DNA of 64,000 nucleotides from Fluviispira vulneris (GTDB lineage Bacteria; Bdellovibrionota_B; Oligoflexia; Silvanigrellales; Silvanigrellaceae), in contig NZ_JACRSE010000004.1 of assembly GCF_014281055.1 (NCBI RefSeq), positions 248,001-312,000 on the forward strand, written 5' to 3'. Below the pieces are notes generated by a model. That model saw only the letters and a program-made list of their open reading frames with translations, searched no databases and was not told the origin of the DNA. Position 1 is the first letter of the stretch. Each line of letters starts with the position of its first letter. Made by a program: the position numbers and the translations under genes. Of this stretch, positions 4,918 through 19,709 are shown one piece after another.

Positions 4918-6054
4918 TTGAAATTTTTATTTTACTTGATTTTATTTGGTCTATTCATAAACAAAAATGATCCCTATTTATATGCAGACACCTCAGAGTA
5001 CAACATTGATGAAAAAGAAAAAATCTCTCTTGAAATATTCTCAGAAATTAATAATCTTTCAGAAAATTATGGAAGATTTATAGTTGTGCGAGACCATAAT
5101 TTATTTGGCTTACATGGGATTTCAAATAAGTTTCTAACATGCCAGATGGATTTACAAAAATGGATAGATAATTGGAGTACATTTATAAAAAATATTCATT
5201 TTAAAAATCAAAGCAATATCTATCCTTTTTCTACAGAGATGCAAGACTTTTTTTCCATACAAAGTTTTCAAGCAGAAAGCATTAAGGAAAACTGTTCTCA
5301 AGTAATTGAAAAAGCAAATAAATCTTTAGTAATTATTAACAGATCTAGACAATACAGTTCTGAAGTTCTTTCAGAGTTTAGTTATTATCTAAATGAAATT
5401 AGCAATTCTAAAAAAAATCTTTACTCAATCTTAGATAAATACATTACAACTTCTAATCTTATTTTAAAAAAATTAGATGAATTAAATATAAAATCTCATA
5501 AAAGTGTTTTTTCAAAAATCACTATAGAAATATACAAATTAAATATAAATGAACCTATTAAAATATTAAATGGCTTTTATTCTCTTATAAACGCTTCAAG
5601 AGATTTGAATCCATCAGTTGCCAAAATAGATATGACGGAGAAAAAAATGCATGATTATATTGATAAATTTAAATATTTTAGCGCATTAAAATTATACGAT
5701 CATATTCTTTTAGACTGCGCTAAAACACATAGAGAAATATTAAATAGCACAATAAATTCAAATTATTTAATCTATAATTTTAATAAGATGAAGAGAAGTT
5801 GTAGCAACACATATAATGCGTTTATGCGCTTTAAAAAGAAGTTTAAAAGCAAACATGATTACGTTTTGAATTTTATTGAATATACAAAAAATAATACAAA
5901 AATAGACTGCAGCAAAAATATCAACATAATCCGATGCAATGAATTTTCAATCATTAAATCCATAAGAATAGAAAAAATTCAAGGATTTTCAGATAAAAAA
6001 CTTGCATTAATTGAATATAGATTAAATAAAATCTTGGAAGAATATAAACTATGA
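4918..6054 (+). CDS. Secreted six-cysteine protein, first gene of duplicated cassette (copy 1)
   Basis: A 378-residue protein starting at TTG 4918, placed by AAAGGAG nine bases upstream and by the hydrophobic signal peptide that follows. The mature part is helical and Lys/Asn-rich. It is clearly paralogous to the product of 16921-18054: both share YGRF(I)xVRDxNL near residue 50, KFxSK/APKHxYVLNF near 305, and the same length. Six cysteines occupy equivalent positions in the two proteins, suggesting conserved disulfides in the periplasm or outside the cell. It overlaps the next gene by four bases (ATGA), so the two are translationally coupled. I do not recognise a family; function unknown. Codon use is more AT-rich than in copy 2. 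Confidence 0.85.
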   Translation: MKFLFYLILFGLFINKNDPYLYADTSEYNIDEKEKISLEIFSEINNLSENYGRFIVVRDHNLFGLHGISNKFLTCQMDLQKWIDNWSTFIKNIHFKNQSNIYPFSTEMQDFFSIQSFQAESIKENCSQVIEKANKSLVIINRSRQYSSEVLSEFSYYLNEISNSKKNLYSILDKYITTSNLILKKLDELNIKSHKSVFSKITIEIYKLNINEPIKILNGFYSLINASRDLNPSVAKIDMTEKKMHDYIDKFKYFSALKLYDHILLDCAKTHREILNSTINSNYLIYNFNKMKRSCSNTYNAFMRFKKKFKSKHDYVLNFIEYTKNNTKIDCSKNINIIRCNEFSIIKSIRIEKIQGFSDKKLALIEYRLNKILEEYKL

Positions 6055-7703
6055 AAATCAGCATATTTTTAATTTTTGCTTTATTGATGAATTATATTTC
6101 AGCATTTGCAAGTTCAGCATTGCTTTGCCATGATGGATATATCGATAACAAAAGACCAGCAATTCCATTCGTACCTTTTCGTATGACAGATAATAAAACA
6201 GATAGAGAATTATCACCAGATGATATAATCACAGCAATCGACCGCAATGGAAAAAGTTATCAAGTCAAAGCGGAAGAGTTTTTTTCAAACTTAAATTCAA
6301 TAGAATATGGCTTAAATCAATGGGGATATTCTCTTCGAGATTCAACAGGAAGTTACAATCTCAGTTCGCTTGATTCATGCCTAAAACTTTTAGAAAATCA
6401 AAGAGAAGTTATTAAAAAAAACCTTATTGATGAGCCTGTAAATGAAGTGTTAAAGTACGATGATTGGAAAAAAAAAGTACAGCTTATAAATGAAGAGCAG
6501 AAAAAAAAATATCCACGCTTTACTGATCTTATCAAGTATAGAGATCCAGATAAATATAATGAATACACTTCAAAAGTAAACGCCTTCGATGTACCACGCC
6601 CTCTCCTTAAGAAAGTAGCTATGACTGTTTTTAAAAAAAGTAAAAATTGGGTTTTCGAGAAAGGAGAAATATCTAAATTTTTAATCGGTGGGAGTGCAGG
6701 ATATGGTGTTAAAGCTAGCCATCTCGAAGCTTCGAGTTTTGCTCATATGACAATTGATGCTGCTATGCTGAATATTTGGCACGGCAGTGTTTTAAGTGCT
6801 AAAACAAGCGCAAGTTCGCCAGGTACAGGCATGGGAAGCCTCAGCCTTTCAGTTAATATTTTTGGTGCTACTTTATTTGCCGTAGACAATGATTTAGATA
6901 AAAGTGTTTATGCAAATGAAAAAGAGTTTATAAATACTCCGCTGAATATAGAAAAATCAACACATTTTACTCTTGGCCCCATTCCAATCCGCTTATCTCT
7001 TGGCATGCGCGGTAGTAACACAATGCGATGGGGACTCGACGCAAGACCTTTGCAATTACAAAGTTTCTTACAGCATTATGCAGAACTCGATGCATATGCT
7101 GTCGCAGCTGTCGATATTTTAATTGCAGGTGTCGGAGTGCATGGAAGACTATTACTCATTTCAGTAAATACACACATTTCAGGTAACGCTCACGTTGAAT
7201 ACAATGACACCCTTTATTTTAAATTAAATCTTGTCGGAAAAACAGATGTTCATACACTATTTGGAGATTTAAAACTTGTTGCTTATGCATATCTTCCCAC
7301 TTTACAGTTCTGGAAGGGTATTTTAGAAAAAAAAGAATGGTTTAAACGTCTTGGAGAATATCCGGGCTTTAAATACTCTGGTAATATTTTTGACTATTCT
7401 GCAACGCTTTCTCCCACAGGTTTTAGTGCAAAAGGTCAGCTCAGCATAGAAGATGTAAATGATCACGTGCAAATTAAAAAAAGTGTGACTCGCAGAGAAG
7501 CCATTCTTTCTCTAGAAGATGCCACTCGAAAAAGAGCAAAAGAAACTTTTGAGTCGATTGAAGCAGACTTTAACAGCGAAAATAACAAAATATTATTGTC
7601 TGAAGACGAACTCTTAAAGAATCATTCTATTCGAATGAATAATATTTTCAATGATTATGAAAATGAATTAAAAGCAATTGATCACATTGCCGAATATTTG
7701 TGA
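6051..7703 (+). CDS. Secreted beta-rich protein, second gene of duplicated cassette (copy 1)
   Basis: A 550-residue protein with an N-terminal signal peptide (cleavage probably after the AFAS region). It is paralogous over its full length to the product of 18051-19709. Shared blocks include PAIPFVPF (near residue 37), QWGYSLRD, SYNLSxLD, AFDVPRP, NWxFEKGE, GPIPxR, LQHYAxxDAYAxAAVD and GNIFDYSATLSPTGF. The middle half alternates hydrophobic and polar residues as in large beta-sheets; the last 70 residues are a charged helix. No catalytic motif is recognised. Strict co-conservation with the overlapping upstream gene implies that the two products act together, probably at or outside the outer membrane. 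Confidence 0.85.
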   Translation: MKISIFLIFALLMNYISAFASSALLCHDGYIDNKRPAIPFVPFRMTDNKTDRELSPDDIITAIDRNGKSYQVKAEEFFSNLNSIEYGLNQWGYSLRDSTGSYNLSSLDSCLKLLENQREVIKKNLIDEPVNEVLKYDDWKKKVQLINEEQKKKYPRFTDLIKYRDPDKYNEYTSKVNAFDVPRPLLKKVAMTVFKKSKNWVFEKGEISKFLIGGSAGYGVKASHLEASSFAHMTIDAAMLNIWHGSVLSAKTSASSPGTGMGSLSLSVNIFGATLFAVDNDLDKSVYANEKEFINTPLNIEKSTHFTLGPIPIRLSLGMRGSNTMRWGLDARPLQLQSFLQHYAELDAYAVAAVDILIAGVGVHGRLLLISVNTHISGNAHVEYNDTLYFKLNLVGKTDVHTLFGDLKLVAYAYLPTLQFWKGILEKKEWFKRLGEYPGFKYSGNIFDYSATLSPTGFSAKGQLSIEDVNDHVQIKKSVTRREAILSLEDATRKRAKETFESIEADFNSENNKILLSEDELLKNHSIRMNNIFNDYENELKAIDHIAEYL

Positions 7704-7737: not shown

Positions 7738-8523
7738 CTATTGATGAGCATCATTCCCCTTTTTTTTTATAAGGTCAGTCAGTTTTTTGAATTCATCCGT
7801 TTGCTTAAATGATTCTATAGCATCCTGAACTATGCCTATTAATTTGGATGAGGTCCTTGATGTAGTCCCAATGTATTTATCAAATGTTGCAATTGGATCA
7901 CCAATAACAAAATCTTTCTGAGTTAAATTTTCTTCTTTTGCTAGGGTATTCATTGCATAAGAAGCAACTATATCAATCGTAAACCAAGTATCGATTCTAT
8001 TGCCAATCAGTTTTTTAAAATTTCTAAGATCTTCTGGATTTTCACTAATATTTTCGATATTAATTCCATTTTCAGGTCTTATGAGCATCGCTCTATATGA
8101 AGAGGCACTCAGAACACCTATAGTTGAATTTTTAGCTTCCTGTATTGAATTAATTCTACGTCCTTTTTTCATTGAAACGAAGACAGGATGCGCAGAATAT
8201 ATTTTTGAAACCCAAATAAATTTTTCTTCTCTTTCAGGAATCCTTGTTAAAGGAATAATAAAAGTTTTCATATCCTTATTGTCTAAAGCTTCTTTATAAG
8301 CTCTTGCCCAAGGACGCCATTCCAATTTTATTTTTATATTTTTTGCTTTAAATGCTTTTGCAATTATTTTTCCTCCTAAACCTCCCAGCTTGCCACCCGC
8401 AGTTTCTTCAACTTCTCCTACAAAACCTGGGTCAGCATATAAAGTGATTTCAGTACAAAATCCTTTTAAACAGAAAAATAAATTTAGGATGAGAATGACA
8501 TATGTTTTTTTCTGAATACTCAT
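7738..8523 (-). CDS. Periplasmic solute-binding protein, SBP_bac_3 family, orphan
   Basis: A 261-residue exported protein: signal peptide to about residue 23, then ITLYADPGFVGEVEETAGG, which resembles the first strand of family 3 amino-acid-type binding proteins, followed by a WRPWARAYKEAL segment and a hinge-type NIENISENPEDLRNFKKL region. Such proteins bind small polar ligands and deliver them to an ABC permease or a sensor. No permease or ATPase gene is adjacent, so it may act as a free-standing binder. The start ATG has AGGAGG upstream. It is convergent with the cassette at 4918-7703. Confidence 0.8.
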   Translation of the reverse strand: MSIQKKTYVILILNLFFCLKGFCTEITLYADPGFVGEVEETAGGKLGGLGGKIIAKAFKAKNIKIKLEWRPWARAYKEALDNKDMKTFIIPLTRIPEREEKFIWVSKIYSAHPVFVSMKKGRRINSIQEAKNSTIGVLSASSYRAMLIRPENGINIENISENPEDLRNFKKLIGNRIDTWFTIDIVASYAMNTLAKEENLTQKDFVIGDPIATFDKYIGTTSRTSSKLIGIVQDAIESFKQTDEFKKLTDLIKKKGNDAHQ

Positions 8524-9217: not shown

Positions 9218-10612
9218 ATGAATCTTTTAAAATCAATTCTGATTCTTTTATCAACGCTAATTATTTCTTGTAAGCCAACAAAAGATGAACACAAAACATC
9301 TGAAAACTTTAGTATAATTAACAATTGGAACGATCCGAACCCTGCTCTAACGAGTGAAATCAATACATTTTTGCAAAGTAAAATGAATAATATACCCCCC
9401 TGTACTGAAGAGAATGTAAAAAATCATCCAAACTGCAGGCTTGAAAAAATTGAAGCAGGAACAGCGGAACCACTGCCAAGTAGTAAAGGTTACCGAGTAA
9501 TGCTAATAGATAGCCAAGGCATGATGCTAGCTGCATATACACGCTATCGAAATAGAGTTTTAGAAAATATATTCGAAAATGAAAAGACTGGAGAATATAA
9601 TGCACGGCCACCAGCTTTATATATTCCTCAAGCTGCAAAGGAAATTTTATTAGACTCTTTTGAGAATCCTGCCTATGAAAAAATCCCTTCTGAGCTTTTA
9701 ACTCCAAGTATGGATACATTTATTGAAAAATTTCCATTTTTAAATTCTAGCACAGGACATGGAGTTATTATTTTCAATTATTTAGCTAATAATTCTCCCA
9801 ATAGCCAATTTGTTTTAGTACATGAAAACGATAGTAAATTCAATAGTATTTTATGTGGTAATGAAACAGAAAACAATAAAATAATAAAAATTAGTAAATT
9901 ATTTGACAAACAAACACAAAGTATTTTAGCGAAAATAAAACAATATGATATTAATTTTATCTCCTATTCTAGGGGCTATAGTACGAAATCATTGCAGAAT
10001 ATCTTAGACGGAAACGAATGCAGAAAAGTTTCACTTGAATTAATTAAAAATATCAATCAAATATATTTTAAGCATTTTTTAGAACCTTTAACTACAAAAT
10101 CAAAAGCGCTTCTAGTTCAAGCAAACCACCCTTCAAGTTATAAGATAAAAACTATCAATGATGAAAATTTTTATTCAGATTGCCAAGAATTAACCAATAG
10201 AGTTCGGGTTGGTACCGCCAATATTCTTGAGCAACCCCTTCCATTTGAAGGAAGTAAAAATATAAAATATCTAAATGAATACGAGAAGAATGCAAAACTC
10301 TGTACAGATTTATATATCAATTTTGCTGTTGAAACAAAAAGACCATTTCGCTATAATAAAGGAGTAATTCATATATCAAAAAGTAACATTGGCACTTCTC
10401 CAGTTTCTGGTCCTGATATTCATTCTTCCCATGCGACTCCTGTTGCAGTGGCTTATCTTATAAATTTAAAAATGCAATTAAAAAATGACTACCCTAATAA
10501 TGAGCTTTCGAATGACATGCTTTTAAAAAAACTATATGAAAATAATAATTTTATATTCGATCCAAGTTTACATAAGCAATTACCTATATACGAACTTCGA
10601 CTCTTAAAATAA
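9218..10612 (+). CDS. Lipoprotein with divergent subtilase-like (S8) domain, paralog 1
   Basis: A 464-residue lipoprotein (lipobox LIISC, Cys18). Motifs follow the order of a subtilisin: GYRVMLIDSQG (Asp98, compare the DTG motif), TGHGVIIFNYLAN (His181, compare HGTHVAG) with SPNSQFVLV downstream as in the usual P-N-A-x-L strand, NFISYSRGY (compare VINMSLG), ALLVQAN (Asn303, oxyanion hole), NRVRVGTAN (compare the VGA strand) and SSHATPVAVAYL (Ser404, compare GTSMATPHVAG). All four positions are kept in the two paralogs at 10622-12153 and 14040-15473. Spacing between motifs is larger than in subtilisin. I infer an exported, membrane-anchored serine protease; the S8 assignment is by eye and needs structure prediction. 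It is followed after nine bases by its paralog. Confidence 0.65.
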   Translation: MNLLKSILILLSTLIISCKPTKDEHKTSENFSIINNWNDPNPALTSEINTFLQSKMNNIPPCTEENVKNHPNCRLEKIEAGTAEPLPSSKGYRVMLIDSQGMMLAAYTRYRNRVLENIFENEKTGEYNARPPALYIPQAAKEILLDSFENPAYEKIPSELLTPSMDTFIEKFPFLNSSTGHGVIIFNYLANNSPNSQFVLVHENDSKFNSILCGNETENNKIIKISKLFDKQTQSILAKIKQYDINFISYSRGYSTKSLQNILDGNECRKVSLELIKNINQIYFKHFLEPLTTKSKALLVQANHPSSYKIKTINDENFYSDCQELTNRVRVGTANILEQPLPFEGSKNIKYLNEYEKNAKLCTDLYINFAVETKRPFRYNKGVIHISKSNIGTSPVSGPDIHSSHATPVAVAYLINLKMQLKNDYPNNELSNDMLLKKLYENNNFIFDPSLHKQLPIYELRLLK

Positions 10613-10621
10613 GGATTTTTT

Positions 10622-12153
10622 ATGTCACTCAATTTTAAATTATTCTTAGCTCTTTTTTTTAATTTCTCAAAACAAATGCATACAATAAAAAAAATAACAA
10701 AGATTAATATAAATAGAAATGGTTTTATGCAAATCGAACTTGATAAATTAAAAACTTATATCTACTTAATTTTAGCAATTTTTTTGATTACAAGCTGTGG
10801 TACAAAACATAATAATTTGAACTTAGTAAAACATTGGGAAAATACTGGCAATTGGGAAGATCCAAACCCTGCACTTACAAATGAAGTAAATTCCTATATT
10901 CAAAGTAAAGCATCTCTTTTAGAACCTTGCACAAAAGTAAATGCTTCTACCGATCCGAATTGTGAATTAATTCCTATTTTCCTGGTGAAGCGACTGAAAA
11001 AAGTAGTAGTTTAGGTTATCGGGTGATGATCATAGATGATGATGGCATGATTCCTGCAGCATACACTCGTTACAGAGGAAGAGTTTTAAAAAATTATTTT
11101 GAGGATGAAACAACGGGTCAACTAAAAGAATCTACCATAAGTATAAAAATTCCAAGAGCAGCAAAGGAAATACTATTAGATACCTTTCAAAATCCAGCGT
11201 ATGAAAAAATGCCTTCTGAGCTTTTAAGACCAAGCTCAAAAATATTTCGGGAGAAATTCAGTGATATGATATACTCCTTGAATCTTATTGGTCATAGTAC
11301 CTTGATCTTTAACTATATTGCAAATAACAGTCCAAATAGTCAGTTTGTCTTGATTCACTCAGGAATGAATAAATTTAATCAAATATTTTGCTCGAACGAT
11401 TTATCAGAAAAAGAAAAAATAAATAATATAAGCGCTCTCTTTAAATCACAATCTGATGATATAATTGAAATCATAAATAAATACAAAATAAATTTTATTT
11501 CTTATTCCCGTGGATATCATTATGATTCTTTAAGAAAAATTGCTGATAAAAATGATTGCAAAAACACTTCAAATGCACTTATTAAAGCAACAAATGAAGT
11601 GTATTTTAAGTCATTTTTACAACCCTTAACAACTCAAACCGAAGCTATTTTAGTACAATCCAATAAAGCTTCAAATAATAAAATTAAATCACTTACTGAT
11701 GAAAATTATTTTTCAGACTGTCAAAAACTCGATAATAGAGTTAGAGTAGGTCCAGTCAATGACTTTAGTCTCTCAATTCCATTTCAAGGAAGTGATAACT
11801 TAAAACTACTGGATTATTCCGAAAAAAATGTTAGGATTTGTACAGATATTTATATAAACTTTGCTGTAAAAAATTATTTTCCTTATACTCAATATAGAAA
11901 TAGCGTGGTACAAACATCACAAATAAATTTAGGCACTACACCTATTATGTTCGAAGGTAGCTCTAGTTCCAATGCAACCCCTGTCGCTGTCACTTATTTA
12001 ATGTATCTTAAGATGCAATGGCAGAAACAAAATCCTTATAGAATAATAACAAATAAAATGCTTTTAAATGAATTGTACTTAAAAAGAAATTTTATATTTG
12101 ACCCAAGTTTATATAAACAGCTCCCAATCTATGGACTTGGTCACTTGCAATAA
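10622..12153 (+). pseudogene. Subtilase-like lipoprotein, paralog 2, broken by a -1 frameshift
   Basis: Two frames together match the full length of paralogs 1 and 3. The first frame runs to a stop at 11014 and contains the lipobox (LITSC), the NWEDPNPAL motif and DPNC. The second, continuing from about 10981 (first ATG 11023), carries Asp (IIDDDG), His (IGHSTLIFNYIAN), Asn (ILVQSN) and Ser (SSNATPVA). Adding one T to the TTTT at 10977-10980 restores one frame through PGEATEKSSSLGYRVM, exactly the paralog order. ATG 10622 has AAGGA upstream; ATG 10727 fits the lipoprotein signal peptide better. Either it is a recent pseudogene or there is a sequencing error in the T run. The downstream frame alone would lack an export signal. 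Confidence 0.8.
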
Positions 12154-12490
12154 AAAAGATAAATTACAGAAAAATTTTATTTTAAAATAATAATATAAAT
12201 AAAAAATTTTATTTATTGAGACATAAATCTATTTGTAATAAATAAATTTAAATAATAATTATTTATTTTATAAAATGCGTCATTTAATTGACACATTCTC
12301 ATAAAAAAAGAACCATAAAAATTGCTTACCAATATAAGTAAAATTTCAAGAAAATACAATAGATATCGAAATAACTATTTTTACTGTTATAAAAAATAAT
12401 CTCAAAATCCAAATTAAATGAAGCTTGTATATGAACTAGCATAACTTATATATTACAAGCATAAATTTTTGCCACTAAGAGGAGATAACT
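12154..12490. other. AT-rich 337-bp intergenic region before the Hint-gene operon
   Basis: No gene is visible. It probably carries the promoter of the long co-directional run that starts at 12491; TTGACA occurs near 12289, but a good -10 box at correct spacing was not found. A strong ribosome site (AGAGGAG) sits at the end. Confidence 0.5.
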
Positions 12491-13276
12491 ATGTTTAATA
12501 AAAGATATAATCATTTTTATTTTAGATTTATTATATTGATAGCTTCTCTCACTTTAGGTTTTCAAGCTTATGCTAATAGAATAACGGGACCATCAGACAA
12601 AAATGGCAGATGCACTGAAAATTTAGGTGGTGGTGCATGCCAAGAAGAAAGAGAATATGCTTTAAAAGCGGGATGCATAACCCAAGATGAATACAATTCA
12701 CTTGTTGGTTATAATTCTTATCCAATTTGTGACAGAAAGAACATTCTAAGAGCTTGGTGCTCATGTGGATGCTTTGAAGAAAGCACACGCATTTTTAGCT
12801 TCGAAGCCCTCACCAATGATATTGGTTATATTCCTATTAAAAAAATAACTGCAGACAGCAAAAAATATAATGTTGCAAGTGTAAAAGCAGACGCTTCTTT
12901 ATCACAACTGAATGTCGGTCTATACAATTTAATTTCAACAACCAGTGGACCAGAGGCAGATCCTCTCATCGTTTTTAAAACGCAAAATGGTTTGCGTCTC
13001 GCAGTTACAAAAGAACATGCTATTTTACTTGCTGATGGCAGAATGGTCGCAGCAAAAAATGTTAAATTAACTGATGCATTGGTTCTTGCAAATGGAAGAC
13101 CTATTGCCATAAAATCAATCGAATCTCTCAAGACAGATAAGAATGTTCTCAATTTATTGACGTCAGGAAAATCAAATTTAGAGCACACTCTCTTTGCAGA
13201 AGGCCTCATCGTTGGTGATTTGGCTTGGCAAAATAACTTAAAAAATATGTTAAATGCCATTGCGATAAGACAATAG
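12491..13276 (+). CDS. Secreted Hint-domain (Hedgehog/intein-type) autoprocessing protein
   Basis: A 261-residue protein. Signal peptide to about residue 28, then a short Cys-rich segment (Cys41, 50, 62, 80, 90, 92), then a Hint fold from Cys94. The Hint signs are CGCFEESTRIFSFEA (nucleophile Cys94 followed by the usual x-x-x-T strand), LAVTKEHAILLADGRMVAA (Thr173/His176, block B) and EHTLFAEGLIVGDLAWQN (C-terminal block). Hint domains make an internal thioester at the first Cys and cleave or esterify the upstream segment. There is no C-extein, so protein splicing is not expected; a Hedgehog-like release of a roughly 65-residue Cys-rich peptide is. Start ATG has AGGAG. First gene of a run with very short gaps. 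Confidence 0.75.
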   Translation: MFNKRYNHFYFRFIILIASLTLGFQAYANRITGPSDKNGRCTENLGGGACQEEREYALKAGCITQDEYNSLVGYNSYPICDRKNILRAWCSCGCFEESTRIFSFEALTNDIGYIPIKKITADSKKYNVASVKADASLSQLNVGLYNLISTTSGPEADPLIVFKTQNGLRLAVTKEHAILLADGRMVAAKNVKLTDALVLANGRPIAIKSIESLKTDKNVLNLLTSGKSNLEHTLFAEGLIVGDLAWQNNLKNMLNAIAIRQ

Positions 13277-13302
13277 TTTTATCGCATTATTTAGGAATAA
13301 CC

Positions 13303-14028
13303 ATGAAAAAAAAGATTTTAATTGCAAGTGTATTTGTCTTAACTATTTTTTTCATTTCAAGAAATCTCATTCAAACAGCTCCTGATCCTGTCAAAATCAA
13401 TAATTCAATGAAAAAGGATAAAGGCGAAAATATTGAAAAAACAACTTTAAATAAAAATTCTGCCAAAAAAAATGAGCTCTTCACTCAAGAGGAGCTAAAT
13501 AATACTGCGCATTTTATTAAAAGTATGAAAAATGAGTATACAAAATTACAGTTTGAAAATGATTTTCACACTCTTGTTTTACAATCCTATCATCAGAATA
13601 ATAATATAGCGCAAATATTTAAAAATATTATTTTAGACAATAATTTTGCTCTCGAACTGAGTAAGGAAGATCAAGCTTACGCAAGAGTTTTTGCTATCCA
13701 AGGCTTAAAAGAAATTGCTTTAAAATACGATAAAGAGCCTCTACTTCAAACAATGCAAGAGCTCAGCTCTTATTTACAAAATAAAACTGTTCTAGCCAAA
13801 GGAGAACAAGCAGATTTAGAAGATCTCTTACGTGGCTATTTATCTATATCTGATCCAATAAATATTGAAGAAAATATTGAACTGCATTTGGCAAAAATGG
13901 GATTTAATAAAGATATGAAAAATAGAGAAATTTATGATATTTACGATCAAACTCTCTATTTTTTTTTAGTTGAAAAGCTGGGTCGCGAGAAAGCAAAAGA
14001 ATTGCTTGGAAAATTTCTTGACACATAA
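13303..14028 (+). CDS. Membrane-anchored helical periplasmic protein, unknown
   Basis: A 241-residue protein with an uncleaved-looking N-terminal anchor (residues 4-21), a Lys/Asn-rich linker to about 55 and a helical domain to the end (for example ARVFAIQGLKEIALKYD, LLQTMQELSSYL). No conserved motif or family is recognised. Anchor-linker-helical layout is seen in membrane-tethered foldases and chaperones, and it lies between the Hint gene (26 bases before) and a subtilase-like lipoprotein gene (11 bases after), but a chaperone role is only a guess. Ribosome site TTAGGA precedes ATG 13303. Confidence 0.75.
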   Translation: MKKKILIASVFVLTIFFISRNLIQTAPDPVKINNSMKKDKGENIEKTTLNKNSAKKNELFTQEELNNTAHFIKSMKNEYTKLQFENDFHTLVLQSYHQNNNIAQIFKNIILDNNFALELSKEDQAYARVFAIQGLKEIALKYDKEPLLQTMQELSSYLQNKTVLAKGEQADLEDLLRGYLSISDPINIEENIELHLAKMGFNKDMKNREIYDIYDQTLYFFLVEKLGREKAKELLGKFLDT

Positions 14029-14039
14029 AGGTTTCTTAA

Positions 14040-15473
14040 ATGATCAAAATAAAACTATTATTAGTCAGCTTATCGCTTGCAACAGTGGGCTGCGGAGTTG
14101 CAGAAACAAATTTTAGTTTGGTAAATTCCAGCGAACCGGAAGACAACTGGAGCGATCCCAACCCTGCATTGAGCAATGAAGTAAACGCTCTCATCCAAAG
14201 TAAGTTGCTGCAAATAAATCCATGCACTAAAAAAAATGAAAATTCGGATCCAAATTGCATTCCTGTCGAGGTTAAAACAAGCAATAATAATTCTTTTGCA
14301 AATAATAATAGCTTAGGATATCGCATATTACTTGTAGATAACGGAATGCAAGTTGCTGCACTCACACGCTATAAAGATCGGGTTTTAAAAAATCTTGTTG
14401 AAGATAAAAAAACAGGAGATTATATCGATAAAGAAATTAGTTTTAAAATTCCATTAGCAGCCAAAGAAGTTTTAGAAAAAACTTTTGAAAATCCAACTTA
14501 CAATAATATTCCTTCAGAATTATTAAAACCAAGTTCGAATATTTTTAATGAAAAATTTCTGCATATGATTGAATATATCAATACCTCTTTAGACTTCACA
14601 GGCCCCCCACATGGACTTACAATTTTTAATTATTTAGCAAATAATATCCCGAATAGTCAGTTTGTTTTAGTCTATGCAACTGAAAATAAATTAACAGAAA
14701 TCCTGTGTGATAACGAAATGAGTGAAGATAAAAAATTGGAACATTTAAAATTGATATTTCAAAACCAAGCAAGCAGACTCATAAATGAGATAAAAGAAAA
14801 TAATATTAGCTTTCTTTCTTTTTCTAAGGGATATTCTAACAAGCAATTAAAAAAAATAGTCAAAGATGAGGGAAGCAAATGCTCTTATGTTTCAGATAAT
14901 TTAATGACAAAAATTAACAAAGCATATTTTCATAGCTACCTCAAATCACTAACCACAAAAACCGATGTAATTCTAGTACAATCAAATTTAGAAGCCGACT
15001 ATTATGTCGATCCTAAGAAAGATAGCAATTATTACTCGGACTGTCAGGAATTAAAAAATAGGATAAGAGTTGGAGCAGCAAATAACTTAACAAACTCCAT
15101 TCCGCCTTTAGGAAGCCATAACATAAGCATATTAGATAATTTCACGAAAAATTCTGAATTATGCACTGAAATGTATATTAATTTTGCAGTACAAAAGAAA
15201 AGACCTTTTTTTTATAACAAAGGCGTTATTCAACTATCATCATTTAATATTGGAACAGAAGCAGCGACAGGTTTTGAAATATCATCATCAAACGCCACTC
15301 CAGTCGCTCTTTCCTACCTTATTTATTTAAAAATGCAACTTGAAAAAGCCAATCCTGGCAAAGAGATAAGTAATGAAATGCTCATCAAGCGTTTGCAGGA
15401 AAATAATAATTTTATATTCGATCCAAGCTTGCACAAGCAATTGCCAATTTATGAGTTAGGATATTTAAAATAA
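14040..15473 (+). CDS. Lipoprotein with divergent subtilase-like (S8) domain, paralog 3
   Basis: A 477-residue lipoprotein (lipobox TVGC, Cys18) homologous along its length to the product of 9218-10612. The candidate catalytic set is present: Asp100 (RILLVDNGMQVAA), His191 (PPHGLTIFNYLAN), Asn316 (VILVQSN) and Ser417 (SSSNATPVALSYL). The N-terminal NWSDPNPALSNEVN and PCTKKN...DPNC segments and the C-terminal NNNFIFDPSLHKQLPIYEL are shared by the three paralogs and are not part of a subtilase core; they may be a propeptide region and a cap. Gaps of 11 and 10 bases to its neighbours indicate an operon. Separation from the other two paralogs by the Hint gene suggests an ancient local duplication. 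Confidence 0.65.
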   Translation: MIKIKLLLVSLSLATVGCGVAETNFSLVNSSEPEDNWSDPNPALSNEVNALIQSKLLQINPCTKKNENSDPNCIPVEVKTSNNNSFANNNSLGYRILLVDNGMQVAALTRYKDRVLKNLVEDKKTGDYIDKEISFKIPLAAKEVLEKTFENPTYNNIPSELLKPSSNIFNEKFLHMIEYINTSLDFTGPPHGLTIFNYLANNIPNSQFVLVYATENKLTEILCDNEMSEDKKLEHLKLIFQNQASRLINEIKENNISFLSFSKGYSNKQLKKIVKDEGSKCSYVSDNLMTKINKAYFHSYLKSLTTKTDVILVQSNLEADYYVDPKKDSNYYSDCQELKNRIRVGAANNLTNSIPPLGSHNISILDNFTKNSELCTEMYINFAVQKKRPFFYNKGVIQLSSFNIGTEAATGFEISSSNATPVALSYLIYLKMQLEKANPGKEISNEMLIKRLQENNNFIFDPSLHKQLPIYELGYLK

Positions 15474-15483
15474 GGGAATACAT

Positions 15484-16065
15484 ATGAGCAAAAAAGTTAT
15501 TTTAAGTCTTTTCGGTTTGATTTTAATTAAGAGTGCATATGCTCTCAAAGTTGAGCCTTACAACAATTATACGCGATTTATTTTTGAACCAAAAGATTTT
15601 ATTGCCGCAAAAGGTAAGGTAAGTGACACTGCTTGGTATTATCCTGGTTATGAAGAATATAATGATTGTGCTGCAACTACTATTCCAATTTTTTTACCTA
15701 AAAAAGCATATATATCTGGTTATGTCACAATAAAATCAACTGCACACACTTGGATAGAATCTCCCCGTGATCTTGCCCGCATTCAACTTTTTAAAGTAAA
15801 AACATTTTCAAATTTTGCCGGCCTGAATCAGGAAATCATGACAGCGCCCTTTTATTTATCTGAATTACGGGATATTAAGACTCTCTATTTTAGTGGGAAT
15901 AGTTCTTATATTCAAGCTAAAACAGAAAATAATCAATTTATCTATTCAAAGTTAATGTTTGATAATCGCAACGAAGCTTGGGATAAAATAAGCTTTTGTT
16001 TGGCAAATATTTCTGAAAGGACTGAACTTTATATAAGCGCTTTAACAATTGACGCCATTTATTAA
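15484..16065 (+). CDS. Small secreted protein, unknown
   Basis: A 193-residue protein with signal peptide (cleavage near YAL, residues 19-21). The mature part has many aromatic and beta-prone residues (AYISGYVTIKSTAHTWIES, IKTLYFSG) and two cysteines, near residues 61 and 172, that could pair. Beta-sandwich character is plausible; no family recognised. It starts ten bases after paralog 3 and is followed after ten bases by another secreted protein, so it belongs to the same transcript. Confidence 0.75.
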   Translation: MSKKVILSLFGLILIKSAYALKVEPYNNYTRFIFEPKDFIAAKGKVSDTAWYYPGYEEYNDCAATTIPIFLPKKAYISGYVTIKSTAHTWIESPRDLARIQLFKVKTFSNFAGLNQEIMTAPFYLSELRDIKTLYFSGNSSYIQAKTENNQFIYSKLMFDNRNEAWDKISFCLANISERTELYISALTIDAIY

Positions 16066-16075
16066 GGAAATCAAT

Positions 16076-16867
16076 ATGAAATTAAAATATTTCTTTGTTC
16101 CTTTAGTATTTTCATTAAGTGCAAAGGGCTTTGCTTATAGCAATCTCCTGAAATGTGATTATGATGAATATTATAAAACGGCCTGTCGGATTGAGCCACT
16201 CGTGTTGAGTGAAAATGATCCTTACCAAATGGATTACTTAATAAAATATGAATATATCTGTGATGGACATAACTTTCAAGTTGGAGCTCAGACGGAAACA
16301 GGATATTACGATTTTACTAGAGGGAACAGCGTAAATTCAGTTACGGCTACAGGTCAAGCACGACTCATTATACAAGCTCTCGATCCAGAAAAACTCTATA
16401 ATAAAATTCTACAAAAAAATTGTTCTGTCCTTGTTAAAGAATTCAATCGCAGACCATCCATTCAGACATTAAATCAATGGACGCAGTACACAAAAATGGA
16501 AGTAACTTTGCTTTATTCGTATTTAGACAACTACACTTTAGCAAAGAATTTGGATGATATTGACAATTGGAATTTATCAAAACTTTTTCTTTTAAAAAAC
16601 AATTTACAGACTCTTGTACAAATCTATCCTCTCAATTTACATTATCGTACCCTTCTTCACACAATTGAAAGTGCCATTAAGAATAAACCTTCTAAAATAG
16701 AAATTCCGTCTGAGTCCAAAGAAGAATTGACAATTTATTATCGGAAAAAGCTTGAAAGTGAAATGGACAGCGCAACAAAAATTCTTGAAATATTTAAGCA
16801 GTGGAATGTTGTGTTTGAAAAAGATCTCGCAGCAGCAATCGAAGAAATTAAGAATTTTATAAACTAA
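16076..16867 (+). CDS. Secreted protein, unknown
   Basis: A 263-residue protein. I place the start at ATG 16076, because AAGGAA lies seven bases upstream and the signal peptide (MKLKYFFVPLVFSLSAKGFA) begins there; an in-frame ATG at 16049 would overlap the previous gene. The first 120 mature residues hold four cysteines (CDYDEYYKTAC, YICDGHNF, KNCSVL) and look beta-rich; the C-terminal half is helical and charged. No family recognised. Same operon as its neighbours. Confidence 0.75.
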   Translation: MKLKYFFVPLVFSLSAKGFAYSNLLKCDYDEYYKTACRIEPLVLSENDPYQMDYLIKYEYICDGHNFQVGAQTETGYYDFTRGNSVNSVTATGQARLIIQALDPEKLYNKILQKNCSVLVKEFNRRPSIQTLNQWTQYTKMEVTLLYSYLDNYTLAKNLDDIDNWNLSKLFLLKNNLQTLVQIYPLNLHYRTLLHTIESAIKNKPSKIEIPSESKEELTIYYRKKLESEMDSATKILEIFKQWNVVFEKDLAAAIEEIKNFIN

Positions 16868-16920: not shown

Positions 16921-18054
16921 GTGAAGCGATTTCAGATCATTTTAGCTATATTTTTCAATTTGTTTATTTTCAAGAATTTACATGCGCAAAGTCAAACAGA
17001 TCCTCTCTATGAGCGCGAACAAAAAGCTTTGAATCTTTATTCTGAAGTGAACATCATTTCCGAAAGATATGGCCGCTTTATTGCGGTGCGCGATAAAAAT
17101 TTATTGGGCGAAAATGGTATACAAGCAAAATACTTACAATGTTTTGCCAACATGGGACAGTGGATAAAAGATTGGACATTCATTTTTGCAACCATCGATT
17201 TAAAAAACAAGATCGATGCCAATACCATGCAGGTGCAAGTGCAAAATATATTATCACGTCAATCAACCAATGCCGAAAGTTTAAAAAGAACTTGTGGAAA
17301 AATAAAGTCTGAGGTCGATTTATCACTTAAAATCCTTGAAAATTCTCCCCAGTTTAATCCAGAAACTCTAAGCAATTATAAAAATATTCTAATTGAAACA
17401 GAGAATATGAAAAATCACCTCACGCAGGTTTTACAAAATTATGCAGCATCCCCTCTCGTCCGCTTGGAAAAACTCGAGCAGATTTTCGAGTTATCACGCA
17501 AAGCATCAGTGAATAAACTAAAAATAGAATTGCTCAACAATGCACGCATCCCTCTAGAAAAAACTCTGCAAGAATTTCAAAATATTTTAGCCGCTTCAAA
17601 AATTGCCGATGCAACACTCGCGAATCTAATTCAATCTGAAAATAAAATGAATGAATACGTATTAAACCTCCAATATTTTAAAGCAAAAAAACTCATAACG
17701 CAGTTGCAAAAAGAATGTGCAGAAAAGAAAAATGAATTGCATGCGCATCCTCTGAGTAAAACATATTTAAAATCTGCAATACTGAGAGTTGACACCCTCT
17801 GCAAGGCCTCGGAAGAGCACTTCCAATTTTTCATCACACTCAACGCACCAAAACATGAGTATGTCTTAAATTTTTCCAAACTTGTAAATTCAAGTATTAA
17901 TGTAAATTGTCTTGGCCAAGCAAATGTTGTTGCCTGTAATAAATTAGCCGTTTTAAAAAATATTGATGAAGAAAATTTAAAAATATTGCCTGAAAATAAA
18001 CTTGAATTTATTGAAGATCAATGGGACAGCCTTTATCAGGAGTATAGAAAATGA
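16921..18054 (+). CDS. Secreted six-cysteine protein, first gene of duplicated cassette (copy 2)
   Basis: A 377-residue protein starting at GTG 16921 right after AGGAGG. Signal peptide to about residue 23 (LHAQ). The mature chain is helical, probably coiled-coil, with six cysteines matching those of the copy at 4918-6054. Shared motifs: YGRFIAVRDKNLLGENG, QCFANMGQW, KHEYVLNF, CLGQANVVACNKLAVLKN. Copy 2 is less AT-rich than copy 1, so it may be the older or better-adapted one. Overlaps the next gene by four bases. Function unknown. Confidence 0.85.
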   Translation: MKRFQIILAIFFNLFIFKNLHAQSQTDPLYEREQKALNLYSEVNIISERYGRFIAVRDKNLLGENGIQAKYLQCFANMGQWIKDWTFIFATIDLKNKIDANTMQVQVQNILSRQSTNAESLKRTCGKIKSEVDLSLKILENSPQFNPETLSNYKNILIETENMKNHLTQVLQNYAASPLVRLEKLEQIFELSRKASVNKLKIELLNNARIPLEKTLQEFQNILAASKIADATLANLIQSENKMNEYVLNLQYFKAKKLITQLQKECAEKKNELHAHPLSKTYLKSAILRVDTLCKASEEHFQFFITLNAPKHEYVLNFSKLVNSSINVNCLGQANVVACNKLAVLKNIDEENLKILPENKLEFIEDQWDSLYQEYRK

Positions 18055-19709
18055 AAAAATTGAAATTTTTTAATTATTACTTTTTTCTATCTTTTTTATT
18101 TCTAATTCACAGCTATACAACAGCACAGGCAAATGAATGTCCCAAAGATTTTATCGAGAATAAAAAACCAGCCATTCCTTTTGTTCCTTTTCCCATGAAG
18201 GATCCCGATACAGGCAAACCACTTTTGCCAGAAGACAAAATCACCATTGAAGATCGGGATGGAAAAAAATATGAAATAAAGGCCATAGATTTTTTTAACA
18301 ATGTCAATTCCATGGAATATTCACTTTCTCAATGGGGCTATTCTTTGAGAGACACTGAAGGGAGTTATAATTTAAGCACTCTCGACATATGTGCAAAACT
18401 TTTAGATAAACAAAAAGATATTATTGAAAAAGAATTAAGAAAAGATCCATCCAATAAAATATTATCTTACGATGAATGGCTAAAAAATATAAATGCAGCC
18501 CTCGATGCCTATAAAGTTGCCATTCCGAGTTTGGAAGACCTCGCAAAATATGGGAACGATGCCAAATTCGACGAATTTATATCCAATGTCAAAGCCTTTG
18601 ACGTTCCACGCCCTGAGCTAAAAAAAGTAGAATTAAAAAGTTTCAATAAAGTAAAAAACTGGTCTTTTGAGAAGGGGGAAAAATCCAAATTTTTTATTGG
18701 CGGACATGCAGGCTATAAAATTGCTGCAAGTAAGGTTGAAGTAGATGCCTTGGCAGATGCTGGTTTAGATGGCGCCGTTCTTGGCGTTTGGGAAGGGCAA
18801 ATTGCCAATGCCTATGCCAAAGCAAATTCTCCCGCAACTCAAAAAGGTTCATTGGATATAAATGCGAGTGTCTTTGGCAAAACACTTTATGTCTTTAAAG
18901 AAGAATTAAAAAATGACAATTATAAAGATGAAAAAATGCTATTTAACACTCCAGTGAGCTTAGAGCATTCCGTCCGTTTTATGATCGGGCCTATTCCTGT
19001 TCGTGTGGCTGTAGGATTACGTGGCAATAATTTTATGCGCTGGGGAGTGGAACTTGTTCCGTTACAGATTCAGACATATTTACAACATTATGCTGGCATA
19101 GATGCCTACGCTTCTGCGGCAGTGGATGCTTTTATTGCTGGAGCTGGTGCAAGAGGAAGGCTTATTTTAGTTGCTCTTGACACTCGTGTCACTGCAGGTG
19201 CGCTTGTTGAGTTTAATGATGTGCCAGAATTAAAACTAGAACTTGTTGGTACGACAGAGTTAAATACACTTCAAGGTGATATCAGTCTATTTGTTTACGC
19301 CTATGTTCCCACTTGGAAATTTTGGAAAGCATTTTTTGAACGCAAGGAATGGTCCATATCTTTATGGAAATCTCCAGGCTATGTGCTAAAAGGAAATATC
19401 TTTGATTATTCCGCAACTCTTTCCCCCACAGGTTTTCGCGCAAAAGGTGATTTAAGCGTCAGCGATGTAGCAGAACAGCTCGAAATTGATCGCAATTTGC
19501 AAAGAGAAAATAAAATAACCGACCTTGAAAATAAAACTCAGGAAAAGCTCAATGAAACATTCAATGCCATCGTCAACGACTTAAAAAGCGAAAACAATTT
19601 AAAAATTTTTAAAAATGAGGTATTTTATTCGGAGTCAGAAAAAAGCATAGAGAAGATCGTCGGAGATTATTTAACTGAACTTGAGAAATGGTCTGGGCAA
19701 AATATATGA
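18051..19709 (+). CDS. Secreted beta-rich protein, second gene of duplicated cassette (copy 2)
   Basis: A 552-residue exported protein, full-length paralog of the product of 6051-7703. Signal peptide to about residue 27. A helical region (45-190) with QWGYSLRDTEGSYNLS is followed by a long run of amphipathic beta-strands (about 205-450) including GLRGNNFMRWG, LQHYAGIDAYASAAVDAF and GNIFDYSATLSPTGFRAKG, then a charged helix. Large sheets of this kind occur in lipid-carrying and outer-membrane-associated proteins, but no family is recognised. It overlaps the upstream cassette gene and the downstream HEAT protein gene by four bases each (ATGA), so all three should be made in fixed ratio. Confidence 0.85.
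   Translation: MKKLKFFNYYFFLSFLFLIHSYTTAQANECPKDFIENKKPAIPFVPFPMKDPDTGKPLLPEDKITIEDRDGKKYEIKAIDFFNNVNSMEYSLSQWGYSLRDTEGSYNLSTLDICAKLLDKQKDIIEKELRKDPSNKILSYDEWLKNINAALDAYKVAIPSLEDLAKYGNDAKFDEFISNVKAFDVPRPELKKVELKSFNKVKNWSFEKGEKSKFFIGGHAGYKIAASKVEVDALADAGLDGAVLGVWEGQIANAYAKANSPATQKGSLDINASVFGKTLYVFKEELKNDNYKDEKMLFNTPVSLEHSVRFMIGPIPVRVAVGLRGNNFMRWGVELVPLQIQTYLQHYAGIDAYASAAVDAFIAGAGARGRLILVALDTRVTAGALVEFNDVPELKLELVGTTELNTLQGDISLFVYAYVPTWKFWKAFFERKEWSISLWKSPGYVLKGNIFDYSATLSPTGFRAKGDLSVSDVAEQLEIDRNLQRENKITDLENKTQEKLNETFNAIVNDLKSENNLKIFKNEVFYSESEKSIEKIVGDYLTELEKWSGQNI

Follow-up and report, generated by a model that had tools for sequence, protein, structure and literature searches.

The locus

The window analyzed here is a stretch of 64,000 nucleotides from the genome of Fluviispira vulneris (3,604,777 bases in 9 contigs), a bacterium of the class Oligoflexia; the strain GX5518 was isolated from a human wound (PMC10645651). 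Between positions 9218 and 15473 lie three paralogous lipoprotein genes, which a first-pass annotation made from the sequence alone proposed to be highly divergent members of the subtilase family (S8). The coordinates, the paralogy and the motifs given in that annotation are all correct, and the pairwise identity among the three copies, 49-55%, is far above chance. It also took the second copy for an intact protein, and this has to be corrected. A frameshift separates the piece carrying the lipobox from the catalytic part; the two are in different frames (Table 1), and the frame offset is found at a run of T near position 10980. The locus consists of two intact subtilase-like genes and one broken gene.

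In a tree of the family the catalytic part of the second copy groups with two genes of Fluviispira multicolorata (contig C24). The counterpart of the first gene in that species (contig C19) is 84% identical, and directly 3' of it is a short truncated N-terminal copy, so that a broken second copy is present at the same place in two species. Broken or truncated subtilase-like copies were seen in three species (10622-12153 in the window; C19:661457-661687 in genome G005; C1:811400-812743 in genome G003), so that turnover in the family takes place through both duplication and decay of copies.

The motifs of the first protein are D98, H181 within TGHG, PNSQFVL, VQAN303, RVG and S404-H-A-T-P-V-A; the four residues correspond to D100, H191, N316 and S417 of the third protein. 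As the annotation stated, Asp, His, Asn and Ser are kept in all three copies, including the catalytic part of the second, and relatives with as little as about 20% identity show the motifs in the same order. A lipobox signal peptide was recognized by inspection in both intact proteins (LIISC18 in the first, TVGC18 in the third) and in most relatives, and the N-terminal piece of the second copy has LITSC. A clear lipobox is missing in some members, in genomes G002 and G003 and elsewhere.

Relationship to the subtilases

None of the subtilase models in Pfam or NCBIfam detects any member of the family. The Pfam model PF00082 gave no match to a member at expectation values (E) up to 1, so that the curated cut-off is not reached, and in the F. 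vulneris genome it finds six other genes and none of the three copies. That routine profile searches would miss the family had been predicted. Searches with hmmscan against Pfam, NCBIfam and PADLOC, done with a single protein and for each member, gave sub-threshold matches only, for example Diphtheria_C and ZnuA, which we regard as chance. The family profile run against the PDB sequences gave no subtilase match and nothing useful.

Direct comparison of profiles gives another picture. Aligned by hhalign to canonical subtilases of the same class the family gave P 5e-7, and with two bridging subtilases added P 1.1e-11. In the controls the best of 30 column-shuffled profiles scored 19 against 59.5 for the real one, and a reversed profile gave P 0.5. 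When the profiles are merged, D98, H181, S251 and S404 fall on the canonical Asp, His, Ser of the NxSxG strand and nucleophile Ser. The class was surveyed by whole-genome searches of 58 genomes, and the family profile matched only two proteins outside the family, L123 (E 3.6e-7) and L124 (E 6.9e-6), both values being per genome; these are real PF00082 proteins (2.2e-33 and 4.2e-16). L124 (925-2337 in genome G024), matched by the family profile as well as by PF00082, forms a bridge between the two. Like the members of the family it has a lipoprotein-like start and a similar length. Unlike them it has the canonical S8 motifs (DSG, HGT, QAAGN and GTSFSAP), the oxyanion Asn included, and its genome is without the Hint subfamily and the protein X described below.

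AlphaFold models were made from sequences of the window and of F. multicolorata only, with no templates. The model of protein 1 has moderate confidence, with a predicted local distance difference test (pLDDT) of 69.8 and a predicted template modelling score (pTM) of 0.77; that of protein 3 is weaker (pLDDT 58.4). With VIA-align 2, subtilases account for 50 of the 50 best matches listed for each model, with Z 11.5-13.2 over 196-240 residues for protein 1 and Z 9.6-11.4 for protein 3. The first-pass annotation had pointed to the structural core as the place where its proposal could fail, and the core of both models was found to match subtilases. The closest structural rows among the S8 subtilases are the mycosin MycP5, EpiP, NisP, intracellular subtilisin, PatA and Tk-subtilisin.

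The proposed divergent S8-type relationship is supported by the profile comparison, the bridging subtilases and the structure models, and on this basis the family very probably has subtilase fold and descent. It has in common with the S8 subtilases the fold and the sequence in which the Asp, the His, the NxSxG strand, the VxA strand and the Ser-x-Ala-x-Pro nucleophile block follow one another. It differs from them in having neither GT before the nucleophile nor a conserved oxyanion Asn, in a His motif (GHS/HG) without the second His, and in consisting of lipoproteins with long insertions. We would place the family beside S8 as a divergent branch: in fold and descent it is a subtilase and it probably works like an S8 protease, but it fails the Pfam cut-off and lacks the GTS motif.

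Conservation of the candidate active site

The survey found about 30 relatives in 9 of the 58 genomes, distributed over several families of the class, and each genome has between 1 and 8 copies or fragments. Seven columns are invariant among 22 aligned members (D98, H181, P194, I245, S251, S404 and P408); when more distant members are added H181, P194, S251, S404 and P408 are left, and the D98 column then has Asp in 16 and Glu in 3 of 19 sequences. A predicted Asp-His-Ser triad is thus in subtilase order at aligned positions, with the His and the Ser invariant. An invariant base and nucleophile amid such divergence is the pattern expected of a constrained enzyme. Glu at the column of the catalytic Asp, with the His kept, was seen in L076:932-2341, L077:1486-2829 and L082:1261-2502; the Ser is also retained in L076 and L077, and L082 ends before the Ser position.

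The annotation had named four catalytic residues. D98, H181 and S404 do fall on the canonical triad, with the reservation that the most distant members have Glu in place of the Asp. The fourth assignment, Asn303 as the oxyanion Asn, is not established: most copies from the genus of the window have N in this column, but others have G, A or S, and in the merged alignment the column stands two positions ahead of the canonical Asn. For N303 to correspond to N155 of subtilisin, a deletion of two residues would have to be assumed. The loss of G-T before the nucleophile was correctly described; nearly all members have SxAxP, the GTSxAxP motif is absent, and other pairs such as SS, ST, VS and PP stand in place of GT. 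The spacings (Asp-His 83-91, His-Asn 117-125 and Asn-Ser about 101 residues) are longer than in simple subtilisins, as was claimed, but not unusual for subtilases of the same class, since the Asp-His distance in the large-loop proteins L123 and L124 is 98 and 111.

No relatives were found on plasmids by tblastn or in a scan of viral contigs, so nothing points to an origin from a phage or a plasmid. An exact scan of genome contigs with a degenerate pattern gave matches in F. multicolorata only.

A module with a Hint protein and protein X

The third copy belongs to a conserved group of genes that includes those for a secreted Cys-rich protein with a Hint domain and a membrane-anchored protein, here called X (Table 1).

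Table 1. Features at and downstream of the subtilase-like genes (window coordinates)
Feature	Position	Strand	Remarks
Subtilase-like lipoprotein 1, 464 residues	9218..10612	+	Lipobox Cys18; triad candidates D98, H181, S404
Codons in protein 1	D98 9509-9511; H181 9758-9760; N303 10124-10126; S404 10427-10429		
N-terminal piece of broken second copy	10622..11014	+	Likely start 10727; lipobox LITSC
Catalytic part of broken second copy	11023..12153	+	Frame open 10981-12153, first start codon 11023; all motifs present
Secreted Cys-rich protein	12491..13276	+	C-terminal Hint (intein-like) domain
Protein X, 241 residues	13303..14028	+	N-terminal membrane anchor; no known family
Subtilase-like lipoprotein 3, 477 residues	14040..15473	+	D100, H191, S417; copy within conserved module
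Protein Y, 193 residues, exported	15484..16065	+	Conserved neighbour; beside subtilase-like gene also in G056 and other genus members
Protein Z, 272 residues, exported	16049..16867	+	Conserved neighbour
Protein A, 377 residues, exported	16921..18054	+	Paralog at 4918-6054
Protein B, 552 residues, exported	18051..19709	+	Paralog at 6051-7703
Protein C, 614 residues	19688..21532	+	N-terminal membrane segment, C-terminal HEAT repeats

The genes at the third copy are arranged as Hint, X, subtilase-like gene, Y, Z, A, B and C, and partial versions of the arrangement are found in other families of the class. Genome G056 has Hint, X, subtilase-like gene and Y in order, with Z and A also alongside; G022 has Hint, subtilase-like gene, Y and X; G038 has Hint, X and subtilase-like gene. 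The Hint subfamily with the Cys-rich N-terminus, protein X and the subtilase-like family occur in identical sets of 9 of the 58 genomes, and all three are absent from the other 49. The chance of obtaining identical sets by random draws is about 1e-10, a figure that makes the link look stronger than it is, since the genomes are related. In the genus, all three components are present in four species and entirely absent from four others. For each of the 17 Hint genes of the subfamily a subtilase-like gene is found at most 1.5 kb downstream on the same strand; conversely, a Hint gene stands beside 17 of the 27 subtilase-like genes. The copy on contig C20 of F. multicolorata has a decayed remnant of X just upstream, which suggests that some of the lone subtilase-like genes are what is left of a once complete module. 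We consider the link to one Hint subfamily the more surprising part of the finding.

The Hint partner has a signal peptide-like start and five conserved cysteines before the Hint block. It resembles the bacterial intein-like and Hedgehog-type Hint domains in having a Cys at the start of the block and a TxxH block, and Cys94, T173 and H176 (the last two in TxxH) are invariant in 14 members; it is unlike them in having a conserved GD where inteins have the C-terminal HN. Searched against the PDB, its profile matches inteins and a bacterial intein-like domain; the best values are E 4e-5 to 1e-4, with the bacterial intein-like domain first at E 4e-5, and the scores against Pfam are weak and below the cut-off. 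On this evidence self-cleavage of the Hint protein is plausible.

Some observations were made on the neighbouring genes. An open frame of 492 residues at L105:3395-4870 matches both Z and Y, and the two may be fused in genome G055. Two exported proteins encoded in tandem, of about 378 and 551 residues, occur as a pair twice in the window, at 4918-7703 and 16921-19709; the 552-residue protein B has distant relatives in 19 of the 58 genomes and belongs to no Pfam family. The N-terminal half of protein C is without a family, and the layout of the protein, checked against Pfam only, is reminiscent of large lipid-transfer proteins. Adjoining the first subtilase-like gene, at 7738-8523 on the minus strand, is a gene for an exported protein which resembles a family 3 solute-binding protein and is just under the Pfam cut-off.

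Alternative explanations

Several observations weigh against active subtilases that work together with the Hint protein. The N-terminal part with D98 gives no significant profile alignment when taken alone (P 0.014), and Foldseek taken alone gives E 1e-3 with low template modelling scores (0.25-0.34) in the top rows. GT before the nucleophile is lost, the family lacks a conserved Asn at the oxyanion position, and Asp98 is replaced by Glu in L076, L077 and probably L010. Finally, 10 of the 27 subtilase-like genes have no adjacent Hint gene. The similarity could be a chance resemblance of motifs on an unrelated Rossmann-like exported protein, and the failure of single-sequence searches in Pfam and NCBIfam and of the PDB profile search agrees with this; the controlled profile comparison, the bridging subtilases and two structure models contradict it, and we find it hardly credible. 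It is only slightly less improbable that the proteins belong to the sedolisins (S53), which have the same fold with Ser-Glu-Asp chemistry. The four best Foldseek rows for the model of protein 1 are sedolisins (kumamolisins), and some members have Glu in the Asp98 column. Sedolisins carry Glu at the position of the general base, but every aligned member of the family has His there, and on this ground the sedolisin reading was rejected; the bridging relatives, moreover, are S8 by Pfam.

A different question is whether the fold still cuts. The proteins could be pseudo-proteases which retain the subtilase fold as binding or scaffolding lipoproteins and cleave no peptide, in the way that PCSK9 acts on its receptor. 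The unconserved oxyanion Asn and the family-wide loss of GT fit this explanation, as do the change from Asp to Glu in distant members and the several broken or truncated copies. A dead fold, however, would hardly be expected to retain both H181 and S404 unchanged at about 20% identity, where almost everything else has changed, and we think it improbable that the family is inactive. Somewhat more weight, though still well short of an even chance, can be given to the view that the proteins are general digestive proteases which degrade proteins of prey or host at the cell surface, the link to Hint being mere co-regulation. The kinship to predatory bacteria, copy numbers that reach seven or eight in a genome and the six ordinary S8 proteases in the F. 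vulneris genome speak for such a role. It would leave unexplained why the family occurs together with one Hint subfamily and one X in nine out of nine genomes and is absent with them from 49.

Proposed function

We propose that the proteins are lipid-anchored, envelope-facing, divergent subtilase-type serine endopeptidases, and consider this probable as a description of the family; that they are active proteases is likely to the same degree. They would have a subtilisin fold with long inserted loops and a triad Asp/Glu-His-Ser (D98, H181 and S404 in the first protein). Homology supports the fold, the identity of the triad, the signals for export and lipidation and the genetic linkage to the Hint protein and X. 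The Hint domain may cut its own chain before Cys94, and a peptide of about 70 residues, rich in disulfides, would be freed in this way. The anchored subtilase would then trim or activate this peptide, or another exported product of the operon, at the envelope. That the Hint-derived peptide is the substrate is a tentative suggestion. The ten lone subtilase-like genes imply that the product of an adjacent Hint gene cannot be the sole substrate.

A more speculative version, which we regard as a long shot, is a pathway for peptide maturation and display in which the subtilase acts as a peptide ligase or transpeptidase and attaches the Cys-rich peptide to an exported partner. Here the acyl shift of the Hint domain would activate the peptide, with no Asn cyclization since HN is replaced by GD, and the subtilase, altered around the nucleophile and the oxyanion hole, would act as PatG does.

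In the literature searched on Hint domains with subtilases or Bdellovibrio and on subtilase lipoproteins of the Oligoflexia we found no report of such a system, and the module points to an undescribed peptide-processing system. The class has received little study and contains a human wound isolate as well as relatives of predatory bacteria; it now yields a branch of the subtilases to which present family models are blind. This branch comes with a testable context, in which a single Hint subfamily, a single anchored protein and a single type of subtilase are gained and lost as a unit, and concrete partners and possible substrates can now be named for what may be an exported processing system.

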